From the IMG/VR virus record IMGVR_UViG_3300044646_001937, positions 1-64,000 of that record: 64,000 nucleotides of DNA; one strand, 5' to 3'. The first letter of the stretch is position 1; every line of letters starts with the position of its first letter. Positions 53,363-63,308 of the stretch are shown here, piece after piece. This DNA is from a virus. The notes under the pieces are model-generated. The model was not told where the DNA came from and did no database searches. It saw only the letters and a program-made list of their open reading frames with translations. Made by a program: the position numbers and the translations under genes.

Positions 53363-53391
53363 TACCCCCACTGTATATTGTGAGCTAGTGC

Positions 53392-53407
53392 TGGTATAGT
53401 ATATTGA
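53392..53407 (+). promoter_or_regulatory. Predicted promoter, GGTATAGTATATTGA type
   Basis: Preceded by GTATATTGTGAGCTAGTGC, nearly as at 51087. The transcript would start TTGATCT...AAAAG and pair with CTTTTAGATCAA (53405-53432), forming a 5' stem. Confidence 0.72.
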
Positions 53408-53460
53408 TCTGAAAAGATTAACTTTTAGATCAAACAACAACCAACAAAGCTTAAAAAACT

Positions 53461-53988
53461 ATGCGAACATTCGAACAACTCAGCGCTGAAGAGCGTGAAG
53501 TGGTAAAAGAACTTGAGAATAAGTACCAACTGGGGGCCGTTGGCGCTAAAATCCTGCAAGCTTCCCCAAAAGGGAAACCTGTGGATGCAAGCGCGCTCCA
53601 TGCAGCTGCGGTAGCCTACCGCAATGAATGGGACAAAAACACTGCAGCGGTGACGTACAGAAACCTAACCGCTAAAACATATTTAGGGAATGCTTTCTCT
53701 CTAGGTATGATCGATTCTAACAGGCTGACAGGAATAAACATTCACGTTACGGAAGTGCTCCCCAAGCAGATTTCTAACGAGGCTGTGTCGGTGGTGGGGC
53801 ATGCTGACACAGCAGCCTTGTTCTCAGAACTTCTGGGAAGACAAATAGCATTTAACAGGGTTAGCGTGACCCTGTACAAAGGGGACACGTTGTACGTAGG
53901 CCAGTATTCTGGTCCACGCCTGCCAGAGGGTGCCACAACCCTCCCTGAGGGCGCCACAGTGAAGTGGCTGAAAGTTGTAATTGATTAA
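53461..53988 (+). CDS. AcrIII-1 / DUF1874-like protein, candidate ring nuclease
   Basis: 175 residues. The C-terminal ~100 residues match the DUF1874 (STIV B116/AcrIII-1) pattern: TYLGNAFSLGMI, then VSVVGHADTAALFSELLG (His114), IAFNRVSV, and GPRLPEGA (Arg153). In the known family the His acts in cleaving cyclic tetra-adenylate, the signal of type III CRISPR. The N-terminal ~70 residues form an extra helical region. There is a duplicated LPEGAT near the end. The activity is inferred from family; it might also be a structural relative. The unit has its own promoter and CAA-rich leader. Confidence 0.72.
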   Translation: MRTFEQLSAEEREVVKELENKYQLGAVGAKILQASPKGKPVDASALHAAAVAYRNEWDKNTAAVTYRNLTAKTYLGNAFSLGMIDSNRLTGINIHVTEVLPKQISNEAVSVVGHADTAALFSELLGRQIAFNRVSVTLYKGDTLYVGQYSGPRLPEGATTLPEGATVKWLKVVID

Positions 53989-54010
53989 CACACTCCCTGG
54001 ATATAGGGAG

Positions 54011-54052
54011 AATGCGCAAGATGGGCTCAATCCCCATTTTGCGCATTTTTTT
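54011..54052 (+). terminator. T-loop-like terminator
   Basis: A 14-bp stem ATGCGCAAGATGGG / CCCATTTTGCGCAT (one G:T) around the loop CTCAATC, then seven T and AGCTATCAGA. Preceded by a second small hairpin CTCCCT...AGGGAG (53993-54010). Confidence 0.75.
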
Positions 54053-54071
54053 AGCTATCAGACACTAGAGT

Positions 54072-54077
54072 TATAAT
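54072..54077 (+). promoter_or_regulatory. TATAAT -10 box
   Basis: GTTATAATATATAATTGG 28 nt before the ATG at 54105. Part of the terminator-promoter module that follows AGCTATCAGA. Confidence 0.5.
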
Positions 54078-54104
54078 ATATAATTGGTAAAACCCTAGCC
54101 AACT

Positions 54105-56696
54105 ATGTTCAATCTCGTACAATTTCTACAAAAAAGAGCAGCATCTTCAGGAATACAACCCCTAAAAGAAAAAATAGCTCCTCAAGAGATTAAAGGTATA
54201 GCTCCTGTCGAACAGCTTGGTAAGGTGCCAGAGATTAAGAAAATCGACGAACCAGTAGAGTCTCTCACATCGGCTATTACAGATAAACCTCTTAAGAAGA
54301 TAGCCTATGCTAGGAATACAGGGTTGGCTGATTGTGATGGTTTTCCCTATACTAACACTTACGATGTACTCTTATTAAATAAACTAGGCTACAGTATAGA
54401 TGAGAATAGTTATCTGTTTCTTCCTAGAGGACAAGAAAAAGAAGGTTTGTACTCGTATATAGAAAAGAATGCTGGTGTGCCCAAGATCGTTACTAGAGCT
54501 ATTGATGAAGGAAAAGCGTTCAGTAGTGAGTATCTCAAGAGCATGGATTATAATGTACCAAAGGGTTATGAGATCAAAGGTGATCTATGTTGTCCTGTTG
54601 AGAAGACTAGAAAAGAGGAAAAAGAGTCTCCTGAGAAGACTGCTGTGTTGGGTGCAAAAAATTCAATAAAGCTGATTCCTAAAAACGAAAGAACTTCGTT
54701 AATTCGCTCATACAGAAAACTGTTAGAAAAACAGGATCCAGCAAATAAAAAAGCAATTAGAGCGGCTATGGGGGCCTCGCAAAAGGGTTTAAAGCAGCCA
54801 AAAATAGTTAATATAAATGATAAGCCTCACATACTGCACTACAGAGGAGTCGCAGATAACAATATATCATTATTACAAAAAAACAAGAATTACCAAAAAA
54901 ATAAACCGCTTAAAGATATAGATTATGAGCAACACGTTGTAGATAGTCTATCAGATGGAAAAAATTTATTAATGAGTACCTCTACCGATCCTATGGTTGC
55001 AAAAGGATGGTCTACCCGGCACGGGCAGCGTCCTTCGGGTTATGTAGGTACATATGCTACACCTTTAGAAGACTTAGCTAGATTGCAAAAAACTAAACAA
55101 CAAGGCGCAATGGTTAATAAAACTCCTACAGAGCAAGAAATAACCATAGCCGATGGTGGCAACTTGTTAAAAGCTGCGCCTGTGATGACCGGGTTTACAC
55201 CTAGAAGAGGGCCTGGCTACAGATTAAGAAATACTGAAAAATCGATAGTTTATCCTAAAAAAATAGGGGTTAATTTTTTAGATAAATTAAAAAATGCGCT
55301 AGGGTTAGGTAAGACTGCTGCAGCCGACCCTAGCGCACTAGTGGTCTCAGGTATTCATGGAGACGAGCCTGCTGGAAACATGGCCGCAAAGAAACTAGAG
55401 GACCATGTGGATGTGGTATCTGAAATAAACCCCTCCAATAAACGCAGATTCAGGGGGAAAGACATCAACAGACACTTTGATAAACCTTCAGCAGGAAAGA
55501 AGCAAAAAAACCTATTAGATATTATAAAAGAAAAGAAACCTAGCAGGGTGATATCTCTCCACGAGGACAACGAGGCGGATAAGCCTTATGCGTACAGTTC
55601 AGAGTCTTTAAAAGAAGAAACTAAAGAAGCTTTAAAAGATAAAGATACTGCAGCTAGTGCGCATGGAGACGAGACAGACAATGGAGTAATATCCAAAGGC
55701 AAGAATCCTCCAGACGGTTCTCTAGAGAAAGCTTTAGACAACAGAGGCATAGACAGAGTTACAGTAGAAACTCCAAGTAAAAGCCAGGATATAGATCAGA
55801 GGGTAAAGACTCAACTAGATGTAGTAAAAGGTTTGTTAGATAAAACCAGCGCAGCCACTCACGAACTCAAGAGCTCTAACATCAAAGCTGTAGGATATAA
55901 CAAAGAGGACAAAAGCCTGGACGTAGCTTTCCATAGTGGCGGTAGCTATACCTACAAAGATGTACCCAAGAGTTTGTTTGATCGTATTAAACGGGTAAAG
56001 AGTCCAGGCAAATTCTTCCATAAACATATTAAAAGAGATAACTCTTATAAGTATGAAAAGATGGAAAAAGATTCAGAGTACAAATGGTATAAGAGTAAAG
56101 ATCTCAGTCAGCGTTTGGTAGCTGGCAGACCGTATCCATTTTCATACCTAACAGGAGAAGCTAAAGAACTGTTGGATGCTGTTAAAAATCGAGACTGGGA
56201 AAACTTTAAAGAAGAAGTGGGTGATACCAGCTTTGGAGCTCAAATGCTATTATCTCAAGCTACAGGATTAAATCACCCTGTGTACGCTGATTTGAGTAAA
56301 GCTTGGGCTAGAGAAAAAGTTTGGAAAGATATGTTTAAAGAGAAAGGTAAAGAATACCATCCAAATCATATGCAGGGAGGAAGTAATTACGCCAAGGCTA
56401 GCAAGATTATTAAAGCATTTGCTAGCGCCGGCATTAAAGTAGATCAGCGTGAAGCTGAGCGGTTGGCTAATAAATATACCGGAGGTAAGATGGAAAAGGA
56501 GGCAAGCAAGCAACCACTACTGCCAGGTATTAGGAAATGGATTAAAACCCAACCATTCAACCATGCTGAAGACGCTTATAAGCATGGAAGAATACCCAAG
56601 CACGTAAGAGATGATGTTGTTAGCGGTAGAGCTGCTGAGAAATATAGACCAAAATTTAAAGAAATGCTAGATAATATAAGAAATTCTGGAACATAA
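54105..56696 (+). CDS. Five-domain protein: N-terminal unknown, ART, M14-like, KTSC, MazG-like
   Basis: 863 residues. 60-165: unknown domain (LFLPRGQEKEGLY). ~190-350: ADP-ribosyltransferase R-S-E pattern, LHYRGV (R247), STSTDP (S291) and EQEI (E343, E345). ~410-570: succinylglutamate desuccinylase/M14-like metallohydrolase, GIHGDEPAGN (H418, E421), ISLHEDNE (H486) and VTVETP (E555). ~587-645: KTSC domain, AVGYNKEDKSLDVAF and GKFFHKHI. ~675-740: MazG-like, YLTGEAKEL and EEVGDTSF (EExxE and ExxD). Last ~70 residues: helical tail. Linkers contain KTA/KTSA (KTAVLGA, KTAAADP, KTSAATH). The combination of toxins and nucleotide-acting domains is unusual and could act on host components on injection. 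Confidence 0.82.
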   Translation: MFNLVQFLQKRAASSGIQPLKEKIAPQEIKGIAPVEQLGKVPEIKKIDEPVESLTSAITDKPLKKIAYARNTGLADCDGFPYTNTYDVLLLNKLGYSIDENSYLFLPRGQEKEGLYSYIEKNAGVPKIVTRAIDEGKAFSSEYLKSMDYNVPKGYEIKGDLCCPVEKTRKEEKESPEKTAVLGAKNSIKLIPKNERTSLIRSYRKLLEKQDPANKKAIRAAMGASQKGLKQPKIVNINDKPHILHYRGVADNNISLLQKNKNYQKNKPLKDIDYEQHVVDSLSDGKNLLMSTSTDPMVAKGWSTRHGQRPSGYVGTYATPLEDLARLQKTKQQGAMVNKTPTEQEITIADGGNLLKAAPVMTGFTPRRGPGYRLRNTEKSIVYPKKIGVNFLDKLKNALGLGKTAAADPSALVVSGIHGDEPAGNMAAKKLEDHVDVVSEINPSNKRRFRGKDINRHFDKPSAGKKQKNLLDIIKEKKPSRVISLHEDNEADKPYAYSSESLKEETKEALKDKDTAASAHGDETDNGVISKGKNPPDGSLEKALDNRGIDRVTVETPSKSQDIDQRVKTQLDVVKGLLDKTSAATHELKSSNIKAVGYNKEDKSLDVAFHSGGSYTYKDVPKSLFDRIKRVKSPGKFFHKHIKRDNSYKYEKMEKDSEYKWYKSKDLSQRLVAGRPYPFSYLTGEAKELLDAVKNRDWENFKEEVGDTSFGAQMLLSQATGLNHPVYADLSKAWAREKVWKDMFKEKGKEYHPNHMQGGSNYAKASKIIKAFASAGIKVDQREAERLANKYTGGKMEKEASKQPLLPGIRKWIKTQPFNHAEDAYKHGRIPKHVRDDVVSGRAAEKYRPKFKEMLDNIRNSGT
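56664..56689 (+). repeat. 26-bp repeat, copy 1
   Basis: ATGCTAGATAATATAAGAAA and the rest through TTCTGG recurs at 58564 with one change; here it encodes MLDNIRNSG at the end of the 863-aa protein. Confidence 0.7.
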
Positions 56697-58621: not shown

Positions 58622-58990
58622 ATGGAGCCTCCCAAATCAATAGACTTAAAACAGTATGGTATCGACGTTGGTCTATTGATCAGTGGCTTGTTTGGGGCAA
58701 TACTTCTCACTAGTAAAGGCTCAGCCAACAACCTACCCAGAACCATAAGCAGTCTCGTAGGTGGCGCAGCAAGTGCTAACTATATTACGCCTATTGTAGT
58801 AACTGTGGCTAAGTTGGATGACAGCCACTATCATTATGGTATAGCTTTTCTTTTGGGGTTTTTGGGATTAAAGGGTATTGAGTATTTTAGTAAAAAGTTA
58901 ATTCCTGATCATAAAGAAGAGGAAGAGGTTAAGCCTATTAGAAAGCCAAGAGCTAGAAGAACAACTAAACCCAAAACTAAAACAATATGA
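58622..58990 (+). CDS. Holin-like or virion membrane protein, 122 aa
   Basis: Hydrophobic segments at about residues 15-31, 43-60 and 75-92 with a basic C-terminal tail (PRARRTTKPKTKTI). It shares this tail with the 59368 protein. Could be a holin or a small virion membrane protein. Leaderless-type promoter just upstream. Four-nt overlap with the following gene. Confidence 0.65.
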   Translation: MEPPKSIDLKQYGIDVGLLISGLFGAILLTSKGSANNLPRTISSLVGGAASANYITPIVVTVAKLDDSHYHYGIAFLLGFLGLKGIEYFSKKLIPDHKEEEEVKPIRKPRARRTTKPKTKTI

Positions 58991-59046
58991 ACACACAAGA
59001 ACAAGCGTACGTTGAAGGATTCGTAAAAAGAGCAATGGAATATGGC
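58957..59046 (+). repeat. 90-bp direct repeat, copy 1
   Basis: Covers the tail of the 58622 gene and the start of the 58987 gene. Only two mismatches to copy 2 at 59691. It spans a gene junction, so it reflects duplication of a two-gene unit. Confidence 0.88.
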
Positions 59047-59364
59047 TACAGTCAAGATGAGGCTGTAGAACTACTAAAAGAAGCAAATGCGTTGACTAGA
59101 GCTTTAGCTAGAGGTGCTGTAAAGCCTTCTACTGCAGCCAAAAGATTAAGTGAACTCTACGGGCACAGTAATGCTAATATTCAAAACGTAAGCGTACCCA
59201 CTATCGAACATATAATTAAACACAATACCCCAGGTCTTGGAGTGCACCCAGGAGTTTTACTAGGGCCAGGAGCAGCAGGGAAAAGATATAGAGATCAGCT
59301 TGGTGCTCAAGAAGATTTGCAGCACATTAGGCACTGGATAAAAAATCCAGAACAATTTAGATAA
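58987..59364 (+). CDS. KRA-module protein 1, 125 aa
   Basis: N-terminal 33 residues carry YVEGFVKRAMEYGYSQDEAV and the Leu/Lys continuation; the rest is a small unrecognised domain (KRLSELYGHSNANIQ). The module is discussed under findings as a possible virion-targeting tag. Overlaps the preceding gene by 4 nt. Confidence 0.72.
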   Translation: MNTQEQAYVEGFVKRAMEYGYSQDEAVELLKEANALTRALARGAVKPSTAAKRLSELYGHSNANIQNVSVPTIEHIIKHNTPGLGVHPGVLLGPGAAGKRYRDQLGAQEDLQHIRHWIKNPEQFR

Positions 59365-59367
59365 ACT

Positions 59368-59724
59368 ATGACCCACCTAACCCTAGTCAATGTAATAGCT
59401 AATAGCACCACTGCGTTTAGTGGGCTTGGCTTGTTAATTCATATATTTGGAGATCCTGATAACAGTATCTGGAATAACAGGATGAAAGCTGCTCTGGCTA
59501 AGCTAGGCTTAAGTATTACTACATGTGGTGCTGTAGCTAACTGTATTACACTATCAGCTCCTCCTCCAACCGAAGTTGTACTCAACGTAGGAATTGCTGT
59601 TACATTCTTTTGGCTAAACTGGTGGCAGTTTGAGATGTTTAAAGCTATGCAAAAATCTCACAATGAGTTAAAATCTAAAAAAACCACTAAAAGAACAACT
59701 AAACCCAAAACTAAAACAATATGA
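59368..59724 (+). CDS. Holin-like membrane protein, 118 aa
   Basis: Three hydrophobic segments (about residues 5-24, 42-62, 70-90) and the basic tail RTTKPKTKTI, matching the tail of the 58622 protein, though the rest differs. Presumably the product of an old duplication followed by divergence or replacement of the body. Confidence 0.65.
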   Translation: MTHLTLVNVIANSTTAFSGLGLLIHIFGDPDNSIWNNRMKAALAKLGLSITTCGAVANCITLSAPPPTEVVLNVGIAVTFFWLNWWQFEMFKAMQKSHNELKSKKTTKRTTKPKTKTI

Positions 59725-59780
59725 ACACACAAGAACAAGCATACGTTGAAGGATTCGTAAAAAGAGCCATGGAATATGGC
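59691..59780 (+). repeat. 90-bp direct repeat, copy 2
   Basis: Matches 58957-59046 at all but two positions and lies over the same kind of junction (membrane protein tail to KRA-module start). Confidence 0.88.
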
Positions 59781-60068
59781 TATTCAGAAGATGGGGCTGT
59801 GCAGTTAGCCAAAGAAGCAATGCGAGGCGCAGCTGCTGCTAAACTTGCGATTGGACTCAAAGACAAAGGGCTAGGTGAGTATGCGGTGCGCGCCGGGCGT
59901 GTAAATATCCCAGGCAGAGGGACGCCAGACACGCAGAGATTGGCTGAACTCTTACGTCAAATAAAAGCACATGAGAAAACCTTACCTACAGATTCATCCT
60001 TTTCTCTCGGCCGTGTAAATCTAAAACATCTTGATAACAAGAATGAAGCTTTACGTATGATGCTATAG
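59721..60068 (+). CDS. KRA-module protein 2, 115 aa
   Basis: Starts MNTQEQAYVEGFVKRAMEYG as protein 1; the remaining ~80 residues (LGEYAVRAGRVNIPGRG, TPDTQRLAELLRQIKAHEK) differ. Hence the N-terminal module is shared and the cargo domain is not. Function of the cargo domain unknown. Confidence 0.7.
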   Translation: MNTQEQAYVEGFVKRAMEYGYSEDGAVQLAKEAMRGAAAAKLAIGLKDKGLGEYAVRAGRVNIPGRGTPDTQRLAELLRQIKAHEKTLPTDSSFSLGRVNLKHLDNKNEALRMML

Positions 60069-60105
60069 TCTCATTTAATTTCCATGACCGACTAACCTAA
60101 TCAAT

Positions 60106-60432
60106 ATGACTACAGAACAAGCATACATTGAAGGATTCGTCAAAAGAGCAGCTGAGTACGGTTTTAATGACGAAGAGGCATTTGAAATTCTCAAAGAGGC
60201 TGCAAAAAAAGGTGCACCAAAAGCAGAGCCAGGTTTTAAAAATGACCTTAAAAGATGGGCGAACAATATTAAGGCTAACGCAGAAATTGCTGGCGCTCCC
60301 ACTGAAATCAAACTGAGAGAAGGTGCAAAAAAATTAAAAGAAAAGATGAGAGAAGGAGCAACATCTAGCAAAGATAAACTTAAAAATATCGCTTCAAAAG
60401 GTTTAAAAACAATAGGAAGATTTAAAAGGTAA
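60106..60432 (+). CDS. KRA-module protein 3, 108 aa
   Basis: YIEGFVKRAAEYGFNDEEAF at residues 6-25, followed by a Lys/Ala/Glu-rich basic region (GAKKLKEKMREGATSSKDKL). Likely disordered or DNA-binding; internal virion proteins often look like this. Confidence 0.68.
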   Translation: MTTEQAYIEGFVKRAAEYGFNDEEAFEILKEAAKKGAPKAEPGFKNDLKRWANNIKANAEIAGAPTEIKLREGAKKLKEKMREGATSSKDKLKNIASKGLKTIGRFKR

Positions 60433-60454
60433 TATTGCCCCATATCAAATAATC

Positions 60455-60652
60455 ATGAACACACAAGAACAAGCATACATCAATGGCTTTGTTAAAAGAG
60501 CTAGTGAATGTGGCTTTTCAAACGAAGAAGCTTTAGAGCTGTTGAAGACTAGCAGATGCTGGGAAGGCTATGAGCCTGTTCCTGGTAAAAAGCCATACTC
60601 TAACGACAGCTGCAGACCTAAGGGTAGTAAGCCTAAAGATAGCTCTAAATAA
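60455..60652 (+). CDS. KRA-module protein 4 with a CWxGY-type tail, 65 aa
   Basis: MNTQEQAYINGFVKRASECG start, then CWEGYEPVPGKKPYSNDSCR, a short Cys-containing motif also seen in phage proteins of unknown function. It may bind metal or be a disulfide-containing peptide. Very short. Confidence 0.68.
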   Translation: MNTQEQAYINGFVKRASECGFSNEEALELLKTSRCWEGYEPVPGKKPYSNDSCRPKGSKPKDSSK

Positions 60653-60656
60653 CTAG

Positions 60657-61106
60657 ATGCGGCTAGCTAGTGTTAGATGCGGTATATGCGATAAGGTATG
60701 GCGTGAGCCTTCTCAAAGAATGAGAGAAGGCAAGACCTGCAGTAAAACATGTAGCAGTATCAAAGGCTACCTGAGTGGGGATAGGAAAGAAACAGGTATC
60801 GAACTCAAGCTACAAAGCTTGCTTGTAGATATGCAGATTGAGTTTATTACGCAAAAACCAATCTTAGGTGTAACTATAGCCGATATATTCATCTATCCTA
60901 ATGTAGCTCTATTTGCTGATGGTAAGTATTGGCATCACAGTACTGAGAAGCAGGAGCACAAAGACAGGTCTATTACTCAAAAGCTAAAAAAAGGCGGGTA
61001 TATAGTTTTAAGGCTTGAAGAGGATGAAATAAATAAAGATATTGAAACTGTAAGAAAGAAAGTGACTCATGCATACAGTTGTCGTAAAATAGAAAAGAAA
61101 CTTTAA
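60657..61106 (+). CDS. Vsr-like (PD-(D/E)XK) endonuclease with zinc finger, 149 aa
   Basis: N-terminal RCGICDKVWREPSQRMREGKTCSKTC gives a Cys4 zinc finger. Residues ~55-130 (ELKLQSLLVDMQIEFITQ, then ADIFIYPNVALFADGKYWHH and GGYIVLRLEEDEI) match the Vsr/DUF559 nuclease fold, with the metal-binding Asp in VTIADIF. Free-standing versions in phages include homing endonucleases of the I-Bth0305I type. It interrupts a row of virion-type genes, so it may be mobile. No intron was seen. Confidence 0.72.
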   Translation: MRLASVRCGICDKVWREPSQRMREGKTCSKTCSSIKGYLSGDRKETGIELKLQSLLVDMQIEFITQKPILGVTIADIFIYPNVALFADGKYWHHSTEKQEHKDRSITQKLKKGGYIVLRLEEDEINKDIETVRKKVTHAYSCRKIEKKL

Positions 61107-61122
61107 ACAACCTACCAAACCT

Positions 61123-61395
61123 ATGGATATTCTAGACAAGTTGATAGCAAGCTCTAGCGATTTACATACTGTAGTTCCTCAAAACATTAACATATATTTC
61201 GATACTTTAAGAACTCCTGAAGAGAACGAGGAATATCAAAGACAGCTAGCAGAAGCTGCAAAAAAAGAATCAATGGAAGCTGCAAAGAAACATCTAGAAA
61301 AACTGATAGAGAATAACAAAATTGTCGATGAACAGACTAATGCTGTACTAAGCCCAGATTCAAAAGGAGTACCATTCGTAGATTTAATCTTCTAG
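61123..61395 (+). CDS. Hypothetical protein, 90 aa
   Basis: Helical with EKEENEEYQRQLAEAAKKESMEAAKKHLEKL-like alanine-rich coiled-coil (about residues 33-68, only described here). Not recognised. Confidence 0.58.
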   Translation: MDILDKLIASSSDLHTVVPQNINIYFDTLRTPEENEEYQRQLAEAAKKESMEAAKKHLEKLIENNKIVDEQTNAVLSPDSKGVPFVDLIF

Positions 61396-61397
61396 TC

Positions 61398-61754
61398 ATG
61401 CCATTCAAATCAAACGCTCAAAGAAGATGGATGTACGCTAACGAGCCAGAAATGGCTAAAAAATGGAGCGAGCATACACCCAAAGGAGCTAAACTTCCAG
61501 AACACGTAAAACATAAAAAAGCACATATGAACACACAAGAACAAGCATACATCAACGGATTCCTCAAAAGAGCTAGCGAATATGGTCTCTCTGAAGAGCA
61601 GGCAATTGCTATCTATAAACAAGCAATGGTAGAGCCTAGCTTGATGGGTAAGAAAGCTCCAATGAAGCCTACCACTCCTGCTAAACCAGTTCTTCCTAAG
61701 AAGCCAATGATCCCTAACGAGGCAGATCAAAACGACGTTGCAGGATATAGATAA
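61398..61754 (+). CDS. KRA-module protein 5, with an internal module, 118 aa
   Basis: Begins MPFKSNAQRRWMYANEPEMA, a start I recognise from small virion-associated phage proteins, and the KRA module (AYINGFLKRASEYGLSEEQA) appears at about residues 50-69, i.e. internal. The C-terminal part is Pro/Lys-rich. So two small tags are joined in one protein. Confidence 0.68.
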   Translation: MPFKSNAQRRWMYANEPEMAKKWSEHTPKGAKLPEHVKHKKAHMNTQEQAYINGFLKRASEYGLSEEQAIAIYKQAMVEPSLMGKKAPMKPTTPAKPVLPKKPMIPNEADQNDVAGYR

Positions 61755-61759
61755 CATAT

Positions 61760-62446
61760 ATGAACAAAGAAACCGCATACGCAAAAGGTTTCATTAAAAG
61801 AGCAGTCGAAAACGGCTACTCTGAAAATGAGGCTATTAATCTTTTAAAAGAGTCTGGCGTCATTAATGACATTGGATCAAGACTGGCTACTGGCGCAAAA
61901 GACTTTTTTCAAGAAAACATTAAAGACCCTGTTAGAGATGTTAGAGAAGGGTTAGCAAATGTTTTTGATCCTAATACTGATGCTGGTTTTACTGATGCTT
62001 GGGGCAACAGTGCTTTTCGAAGAGCTGACAACCTACAAAGCGATGCTTTTAATAAAGCTACTGAAGGATTAAAAAACACATTTAAGTTGCCTGAACATAT
62101 TGCCAGATATGGACAAAATAATCTAAAGCCTGAAGATACAATCAAAGCTGTGCAAGATACGTATCAGGGTAAATATGATACGGACGTATTCAATAGAGAG
62201 CATCCTACGCTTGCAGGTATAGGCAAATGGCTCACAGAGCATAACATTAATCCTCAGCATGCCGCTCTAGCTGCTGGTGGTGCAGGATTGTTAGCAGGTG
62301 GATATGGTTTGGCTAAATTGCTTGGTAACAATAAACCTAAAGAAGAAGAACAAGAACAAGAACCTATGGATCCTAGAATGTTTATGTCGCCGCCTCCCCC
62401 TCCACCGCAACCGCAAAGAGGACCATACAATATAGTATTTAATTAA
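61760..62446 (+). CDS. KRA-module protein 6 with C-terminal membrane helix, 228 aa
   Basis: AYAKGFIKRAVENGYSENEAINLLKE at the start, a helical body, a Gly/Ala hydrophobic segment (AALAAGGAGLLAGGYGLAKLL) at about residues 176-196 and a Pro-rich tail (EPMDPRMFMSPPPPPP). The hydrophobic segment resembles that of the ATP-grasp-like protein. Virion or membrane protein. Not recognised. Confidence 0.7.
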   Translation: MNKETAYAKGFIKRAVENGYSENEAINLLKESGVINDIGSRLATGAKDFFQENIKDPVRDVREGLANVFDPNTDAGFTDAWGNSAFRRADNLQSDAFNKATEGLKNTFKLPEHIARYGQNNLKPEDTIKAVQDTYQGKYDTDVFNREHPTLAGIGKWLTEHNINPQHAALAAGGAGLLAGGYGLAKLLGNNKPKEEEQEQEPMDPRMFMSPPPPPPQPQRGPYNIVFN

Positions 62447-62447
62447 T

Positions 62448-63308
62448 ATGAACACACAAGAACAAGCATATCTAAACGGGTTCATTAAAAAAGCTGCAAG
62501 CTATGGTGTAGACGCAGATACTGCGTTTGCTATACTAAAGATGGCTAATGATGGTCCTCAGCTAATAAGTGGAGGTGGGAGTCTTATAAATTCGTCAACC
62601 TCTAAACCAACGCCAGAACCAACAAGTTTAACTGGACTTAAAGGATCAGGTACAGGAATGATGGCTCCAGGAAACGGATTTGAAAGAGGGTTTAAAAACA
62701 TGATGGAAAGCTTTAGACCTGCACCTAAACCTATCAGTGGTGGAAGCTCTTTTGCGTCAGCGCCAGCTCAGCAATCTGCAGCCCCTGCAGGACCTTCCAG
62801 CAAACCAGGAACTGGCGGCCTGATAGATACGTCAGGAAAATTGACGCTTACACCTAATAGTCCAATCTCAACTACAACTCCGTTAATTCAAGGTGGCGCT
62901 AGTACGTTTGCAAGCAATCAAGGAACTCTTCCCCAAGCCTCTACACCTAAACCTAGTCAGTCTGCAGCAGGCATGAATGAGGGGTTGGCTTCACATATGC
63001 ATCTTAATGAGTTGCCAGCACAACCAGCAGCACCAGCTCAACAACCGCAGCAACCAGCAGCTCAACCTAGCGCTGGACCTAGTGACGCTTTCTTAAGAAA
63101 GATTATGGGAAGCTATGATCCTAACAGTAAAGTAGACAGAGCTCAAGCAGATAGGGTGAGACAGTTATATGCTCAAGGCAAAACAACTGCAAAGGATATC
63201 TACGGTTCTCCTGAGTATCAAATAAACAGAGAAGCTCTAGGAGCTAGAAAAGGAGCCAACAGATCTGCGTATAGCGGATTAAAGCCTGCTCCTGGCATTC
63301 CTAGATAA
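62448..63308 (+). CDS. KRA-module protein 7, Pro/Ser/Gln-rich, 286 aa
   Basis: AYLNGFIKKAASYGVDADTAFAIL at the N-terminus, followed by a low-complexity Pro/Ser/Ala/Gln region and a basic C-terminal part (RQLYAQGKTTAKDIYGSPEY). TAA-T-ATG start. Likely disordered virion-associated protein. Confidence 0.7.
   Translation: MNTQEQAYLNGFIKKAASYGVDADTAFAILKMANDGPQLISGGGSLINSSTSKPTPEPTSLTGLKGSGTGMMAPGNGFERGFKNMMESFRPAPKPISGGSSFASAPAQQSAAPAGPSSKPGTGGLIDTSGKLTLTPNSPISTTTPLIQGGASTFASNQGTLPQASTPKPSQSAAGMNEGLASHMHLNELPAQPAAPAQQPQQPAAQPSAGPSDAFLRKIMGSYDPNSKVDRAQADRVRQLYAQGKTTAKDIYGSPEYQINREALGARKGANRSAYSGLKPAPGIPR

Follow-up and report, generated by a model that had tools for sequence, protein, structure and literature searches.

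The product of the gene studied here is very probably a phage ring nuclease of the AcrIII-1 family that acts against CRISPR immunity, and it carries in addition an N-terminal domain for which no kin were found. It lies in the window (the whole stretch of 64,000 nucleotides that was analyzed), which belongs to a virus record of 204,454 bp (G000). Proteins of the AcrIII-1 family are already known from phages, and what is new is the extra domain: as far as our search reached, no accessory domain was known on a viral AcrIII-1 before. The sequence-only reading of this DNA had proposed an AcrIII-1-type ring nuclease with extra N-terminal helices, and that proposal is borne out by the profile matches, the alignments, the predicted fold, the catalytic residue and the conservation. 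The features of the locus are collected in Table 1.

Table 1 Features of the AcrIII-1 locus, in window positions.
Feature	Position	Strand	Evidence
Weak sigma-70-like promoter match, TTGTGA-16-TATATT	53378..53405	+	9/12 consensus positions; the phage has RNA polymerase subunits of its own
11-bp stem-loop, 5′ side of the leader	53404..53433	+	MFE -10.8 kcal/mol, z -4.7
CAA-rich, G-poor leader without Shine-Dalgarno	53431..53460	+	(AAC)n-AAAGC kept in the relative (L002)
ORF	53461-53988	+	175 aa; motifs quoted by the sequence-only reading present in the translation
Four-helix N-terminal extension, aa 1-71	53461..53673	+	60% identity in L002; dN/dS about 0.16; AlphaFold helices
DUF1874 / AcrIII-1 ring-nuclease domain, aa 72-175	53674..53985	+	PF08960 34.2 bits; 6scf fold match E 6e-8; invariant residues
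Codon of catalytic His114 (= SIRV1 gp29 H47)	53800..53802	+	Alignment to 2x4i (His) and 6scf (Ala there)
Strong intrinsic terminator: two stem-loops, then a U tract	53993..54047	+	MFE -33.6 kcal/mol, z -6.9

The protein contains a conserved ring-nuclease domain

The hmmscan match to PF08960 (STIV_B116-like, DUF1874) spans aa 74-158 of the ORF, and its score (34.2 bits) is to be read against a curated Pfam cut-off of 26 bits. The protein also matched phrog_5063 (E 3e-14), and a phmmer search of the PDB retrieved SIRV1 gp29 (2x4i, E 3.4e-7, and 6scf, E 1.5e-6) as well as AFV3-109 and STIV B116. When a profile built from 25 relatives was used, 2x4i was matched at E 3e-19. The relation of this protein to DUF1874 is not a matter of chance.

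In the profile alignment, H114 stands with the GH of 2x4i and with the GA of 6scf, and this His, which aligns with H47 of SIRV1 gp29 and had already been named as the catalytic residue, is invariant in 25 family members. Across an alignment of eight members that takes in SIRV1, STIV2 and THSA-485A, the residues N77, G113, H114, N132, R133, D142, R153, L154 and G157 are invariant. The presumed cA4-binding residues are all present, as R153, E156, N77 and R133 stand opposite Arg85, Glu88, Asn8 and Arg66 of SIRV1 gp29, which we take to be its ligand-site residues. Asn13 of SIRV1 gp29 is replaced by Gly here (G82), and most phage relatives have Gly or Gln at this position.

Structure prediction is in line with the proposed likeness to the SIRV1 gp29 AcrIII-1. 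The full-length AlphaFold model (a single chain from alignment A4, mean pLDDT 86) matched 6scf_F (E 5.7e-8, prob 1.00) and 2x4i_C (TMt 0.79) in Foldseek, and it matched the THSA-485A protein I3VYU1 with a TMt of 0.87. In the BFVD, small uncharacterised proteins of the Erwinia jumbo phages vB_EamM_Kwan and phiEaH2 matched the same model fold (9-12% identity, E 4e-4 to 1.4e-2); they are possible remote ring-nuclease-fold proteins.

As in SIRV1 gp29 (2x4i, 6scf), the protein has the DUF1874 fold, a catalytic His and the motifs NAFS, NR and RL-x-EG. However, SIRV1 gp29 is only about 34% identical, is 114 aa long without an N-terminal domain, and goes on differently after RLEEG, where the window protein has ATTLPEGA. 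The closest annotated phage protein is the DUF1874 protein Tsac_2833 of Thermoanaerobacterium phage THSA-485A (43% identity over aa 74-174), which has the same RLPEG-x-TTLP ending but is 102 aa long, lacks the extension and comes from a phage genome of about 42-kb. Marinitoga Csx1-Crn2 (PMC7293037; 8y6z, 8y7f, 8y7g) likewise joins an N-terminal part to a DUF1874 ring nuclease, but there the fused part is a CARF-HEPN ribonuclease and the gene sits in a CRISPR locus, whereas the window phage has a 71-aa helical domain.

The N-terminal extension is structured and under constraint

The helical extension of ~70 aa described by the sequence-only reading proved to be coding and constrained (Table 1). 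AlphaFold placed its helices at residues 9-22, 27-33, 43-56 and 59-70, ahead of the DUF1874 fold, with a pLDDT of about 71-84 in the full model, and the same helices were obtained when the extension was modelled alone (pLDDT 79). Between the window phage and its one near relative, residues 1-71 are 60% identical and the DUF1874 domain 87%. Nei-Gojobori estimates of dN/dS for this pair were 0.067/0.442 for the domain and 0.282/1.715 for the extension, whose dS is almost saturated; both parts are under purifying selection. The unequal dS of extension and domain could mean that the domain has been swapped between phages.

The extension found nothing in 50,697 phage records (tblastn, E up to 10), and a search of IMG/VR and GTDB contigs with the extension only returned the contig of the relative again. 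It matched no Pfam family, including those of helix-turn-helix (HTH) proteins, and, taken alone, no PDB fold (best E 3.9), which gives no support to an HTH or other known fold. None of the other ORFs of the phage carries a second copy, which excludes a phage-wide tag, and a frame artefact was discarded on the basis of the dN/dS and of the start and frame, both kept in the relative. The extension is a real, structured domain without found kin.

The ORF has no internal ATG before M83, and codon 64 is GTG; an internal start there might conceivably yield a protein of standard length. In the relative, an ATG shortly precedes the DUF1874 domain of the orthologue, and a second, short form could start from it.

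Relatives and distribution

The only near relative found is encoded on a 16.8-kb IMG/VR contig (IMGVR_UViG_3300044632_001371, G001; locus L002), which is syntenic with window 46-62 kb. Its protein is 76% identical over the full length and shows the whole architecture, extension included, in 176 aa. The block from leader to terminator is homologous (window 53424-54087, 80% DNA identity), with the CAA leader and the double-stem terminator in common, and the synteny takes in an exonuclease, a KTSC protein and a holin-like ORF. In contrast, the 5′ stem was not seen in the relative, and the 551-aa gene upstream in the window is absent from it.

A search with the domain only gave 45 viral loci (one of them, L012, being the G001 orthologue again) and 13 DUF1874 loci in genomes of Saccharibacteria, Bacillota, Bacteroidota, Verrucomicrobiota and Aquificota. 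The extension is missing from all of the other loci sampled (44/44 viral and 13/13 cellular). In most of these the protein starts only a few residues from YLGNAFS; where a longer in-frame stretch precedes the motif, as in a few loci, it bears no similarity to the extension. In the domain tree, the phage pair grouped with L015 (301-kb contig), L016, L068, L070 and L073 (Chitinophagales) with a support of 97/93, several branches of this group being long.

AcrIII-1 genes were also found in viral contigs of 146, 185, 238 and 301 kb. Two loci, L017 (185-kb contig) and L014 (48-kb contig), combine an AcrIII-1 without the extension and an RNA polymerase of the lineage of this phage (31-36% identity), which in one of the contigs (G006, G004) lies a few kb from the AcrIII-1 gene. 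The presence of this RNA polymerase in both means that AcrIII-1 recurs in the group, without a shared neighbourhood.

The phage genome and its likely host

A gene survey of the record, in which 204,000 of the 204,454 bases were read in pieces, identified an SbcC-like nuclease subunit, DNA helicases, a DnaB-type helicase, a DNA polymerase, a UvsX-like recombinase, tail fibres, a ribonucleotide reductase, RNA polymerase beta-related subunits and a head maturation protease. No match to Cas10 was found in the phage genome, while the positive controls matched. No integrase was matched in the genome either, and a prophage reading was rejected on this ground.

One RNA polymerase subunit is ~30% identical to those of Salmonella phage Arash and some Vibrio phages. 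An SD-like motif precedes 12.6% of 198 called genes, compared to 62% in a 50-kb stretch of Arash. Upstream positions of the phage genes are A-rich (A at -3 in 48%, at -6 in 46%), and T stands at -1 in 61% of the called starts of the whole record. Since A-rich, SD-less starts of this kind have been described for Bacteroidetes (PMC6847099), the starts point to a likely SD-poor host, such as a member of Bacteroidota or of another SD-poor lineage. The G+C content of the AcrIII-1 gene (50%, compared to 40.6% for the genome) is among the highest of 197 genes, which suggests that the gene was acquired from elsewhere.

Proposed function and alternative readings

Because the catalytic residue and the fold are conserved, the protein most likely degrades cyclic tetra-adenylate (cA4) as AcrIII-1 does. 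The protein would dimerise via its DUF1874 domain (the model being that of a single chain), the dimer would enclose the cA4 made by the host Cas10, and the ring would be cleaved using His114 during infection. The effectors activated by cA4 (Csx1/Csm6, Can-type nucleases and others) would then stay or switch off, and type III immunity would be inhibited. The rate of cA4 degradation by AcrIII-1 is about 60 times that of Crn1, and the H47A variant still binds cA4 but no longer cleaves it (PMC7213978). The Crn2 domain of Csx1-Crn2 acts alike, with H495 as the catalytic residue (PMC7293037). No ring nuclease is commoner in phages than AcrIII-1 (PMC12409355). In some large phages the DNA is protected against CRISPR nucleases, yet RNA-guided type III immunity can still act on them (review PMC13282480). 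That a 204-kb phage encodes a ring nuclease is consistent with type III being a pressure to which phages of this sort must respond.

As the phage genome has no Cas10 match, the role of the protein is most likely anti-CRISPR. It is scarcely credible that it acts as a Crn2-like regulator of a type III system instead: the two belong to the same family, cellular Crn2 is present in a few CRISPR loci (PMC12409355) and PADLOC calls the domain Csx16-like, but PADLOC found no other convincing defence protein in the tested neighbours, and a virus record with phage genes and neither a Cas10 nor an integrase match suits an anti-CRISPR better than a Crn2 of a CRISPR locus. The DUF1874 fold might also serve as a sponge that binds a cyclic nucleotide without cleavage, or act on another signal, for example a CBASS messenger. 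Cyclic-nucleotide sponge proteins are known in phages (PMC11722364); however, this protein keeps its catalytic His as well as the other invariant residues, and those members of the family that have been assayed in published work cleave cA4 (PMC7293037, PMC7213978), which makes a sponge or an enzyme for another signal highly improbable.

Within the anti-CRISPR reading, the extension could alter site access or dimerisation, since the known AcrIII-1 enzymes are without such a domain. We tentatively favor an accessory module that stabilizes the dimer or docks to a phage or host partner. That this module gives the enzyme a new property is rather doubtful; such a property could be regulation of its activity, entry into the virion with later injection, or attachment to a type III effector or to a phage replication structure. 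A module for targeting or packaging, by which the enzyme would be injected with the virion or tethered to a phage structure and would clear cA4 from the first minutes of infection, is unlikely. In its favor, the extension is conserved, structured and confined to this phage pair, late-type genes with a holin among them follow downstream of the gene, and phiKZ offers a published precedent by injecting the signal-sequestering Tad1 (review PMC13282480). Against it, no other ORF of the phage has the extension, a different N-terminal tag is common to many neighbouring ORFs, and leader and terminator are the gene's own. AcrIIA1-type proteins repress their own promoter, and a fusion of this kind, with the N-terminal helices as a DNA-binding HTH, would agree with a small helical domain and with an inverted repeat (53404-53433) adjoining the promoter-like site. 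That fusion is nonetheless very unlikely, given that no HTH family or fold was matched, that the residue make-up is near neutral and that the inverted repeat was not seen in the relative.

Leader, terminator and neighbouring genes

The flanking signals named by the sequence-only reading fared unequally. The CAA-rich leader was confirmed and is kept in the relative, and the 5′ stem is real in the window but finds little support as a part of the system, no equivalent being seen in L002 (z = -0.3). The promoter match is weak evidence for a promoter belonging to this gene, the phage having its own RNA polymerase. Both stems of the terminator also occur in the relative. The terminator region after the AcrIII-1 gene of the relative is 86% identical over 43 bp to another site of the G000 genome, as in a reused terminator element; the two matching stretches are L058:13353-13395 and L064:8397-8439.

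The downstream neighbour (54105-56696, 863 aa) had been read as an ART/M14/MazG protein, and its only strong domain is KTSC (65 bits). The MazG match is marginal (22.5 against a cut-off of 22), the M14/AstE-like stretch is below the cut-off, and the ART fold is a hint (TreX, E 0.14). Compared with L002:5737-8022, only aa 61-182 and the KTSC region of this protein are kept (76-90%), so the rest is swapped, the middle and C-terminal parts (M14/AstE-like, MazG-like and possible ART) being replaced in the relative, as in a protein of modular build.

The upstream 551-aa ORF had no family match in the Pfam and PHROG profiles and no counterpart in G001. Further downstream, the ORF at 58622 is holin-like and that at 60657 HNH-like. 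When seven ORFs were submitted to PADLOC, the DUF1874 protein itself matched Csx16, and no convincing defence protein emerged among the neighbours. With Pfam scans of the neighbours giving nothing convincing either, and a holin and an HNH endonuclease nearby, the suggestion of a counter-defence region or island was set aside as weakly supported.

A different N-terminal module of ~33 aa, with the consensus-like sequence MNTQEQAYIEGFxKRAxEYGxSxxEAxxLLKxA, heads at least eight otherwise unlike small ORFs of this phage and four in the related phage. The sites comprise window 58987-63308, G000 around 137327 (L060:13327-13746) and L064 (11591-14809). Several copies are about 80-95% identical in DNA, so that the module resembles a modular tag that was duplicated and may serve in targeting or packaging.
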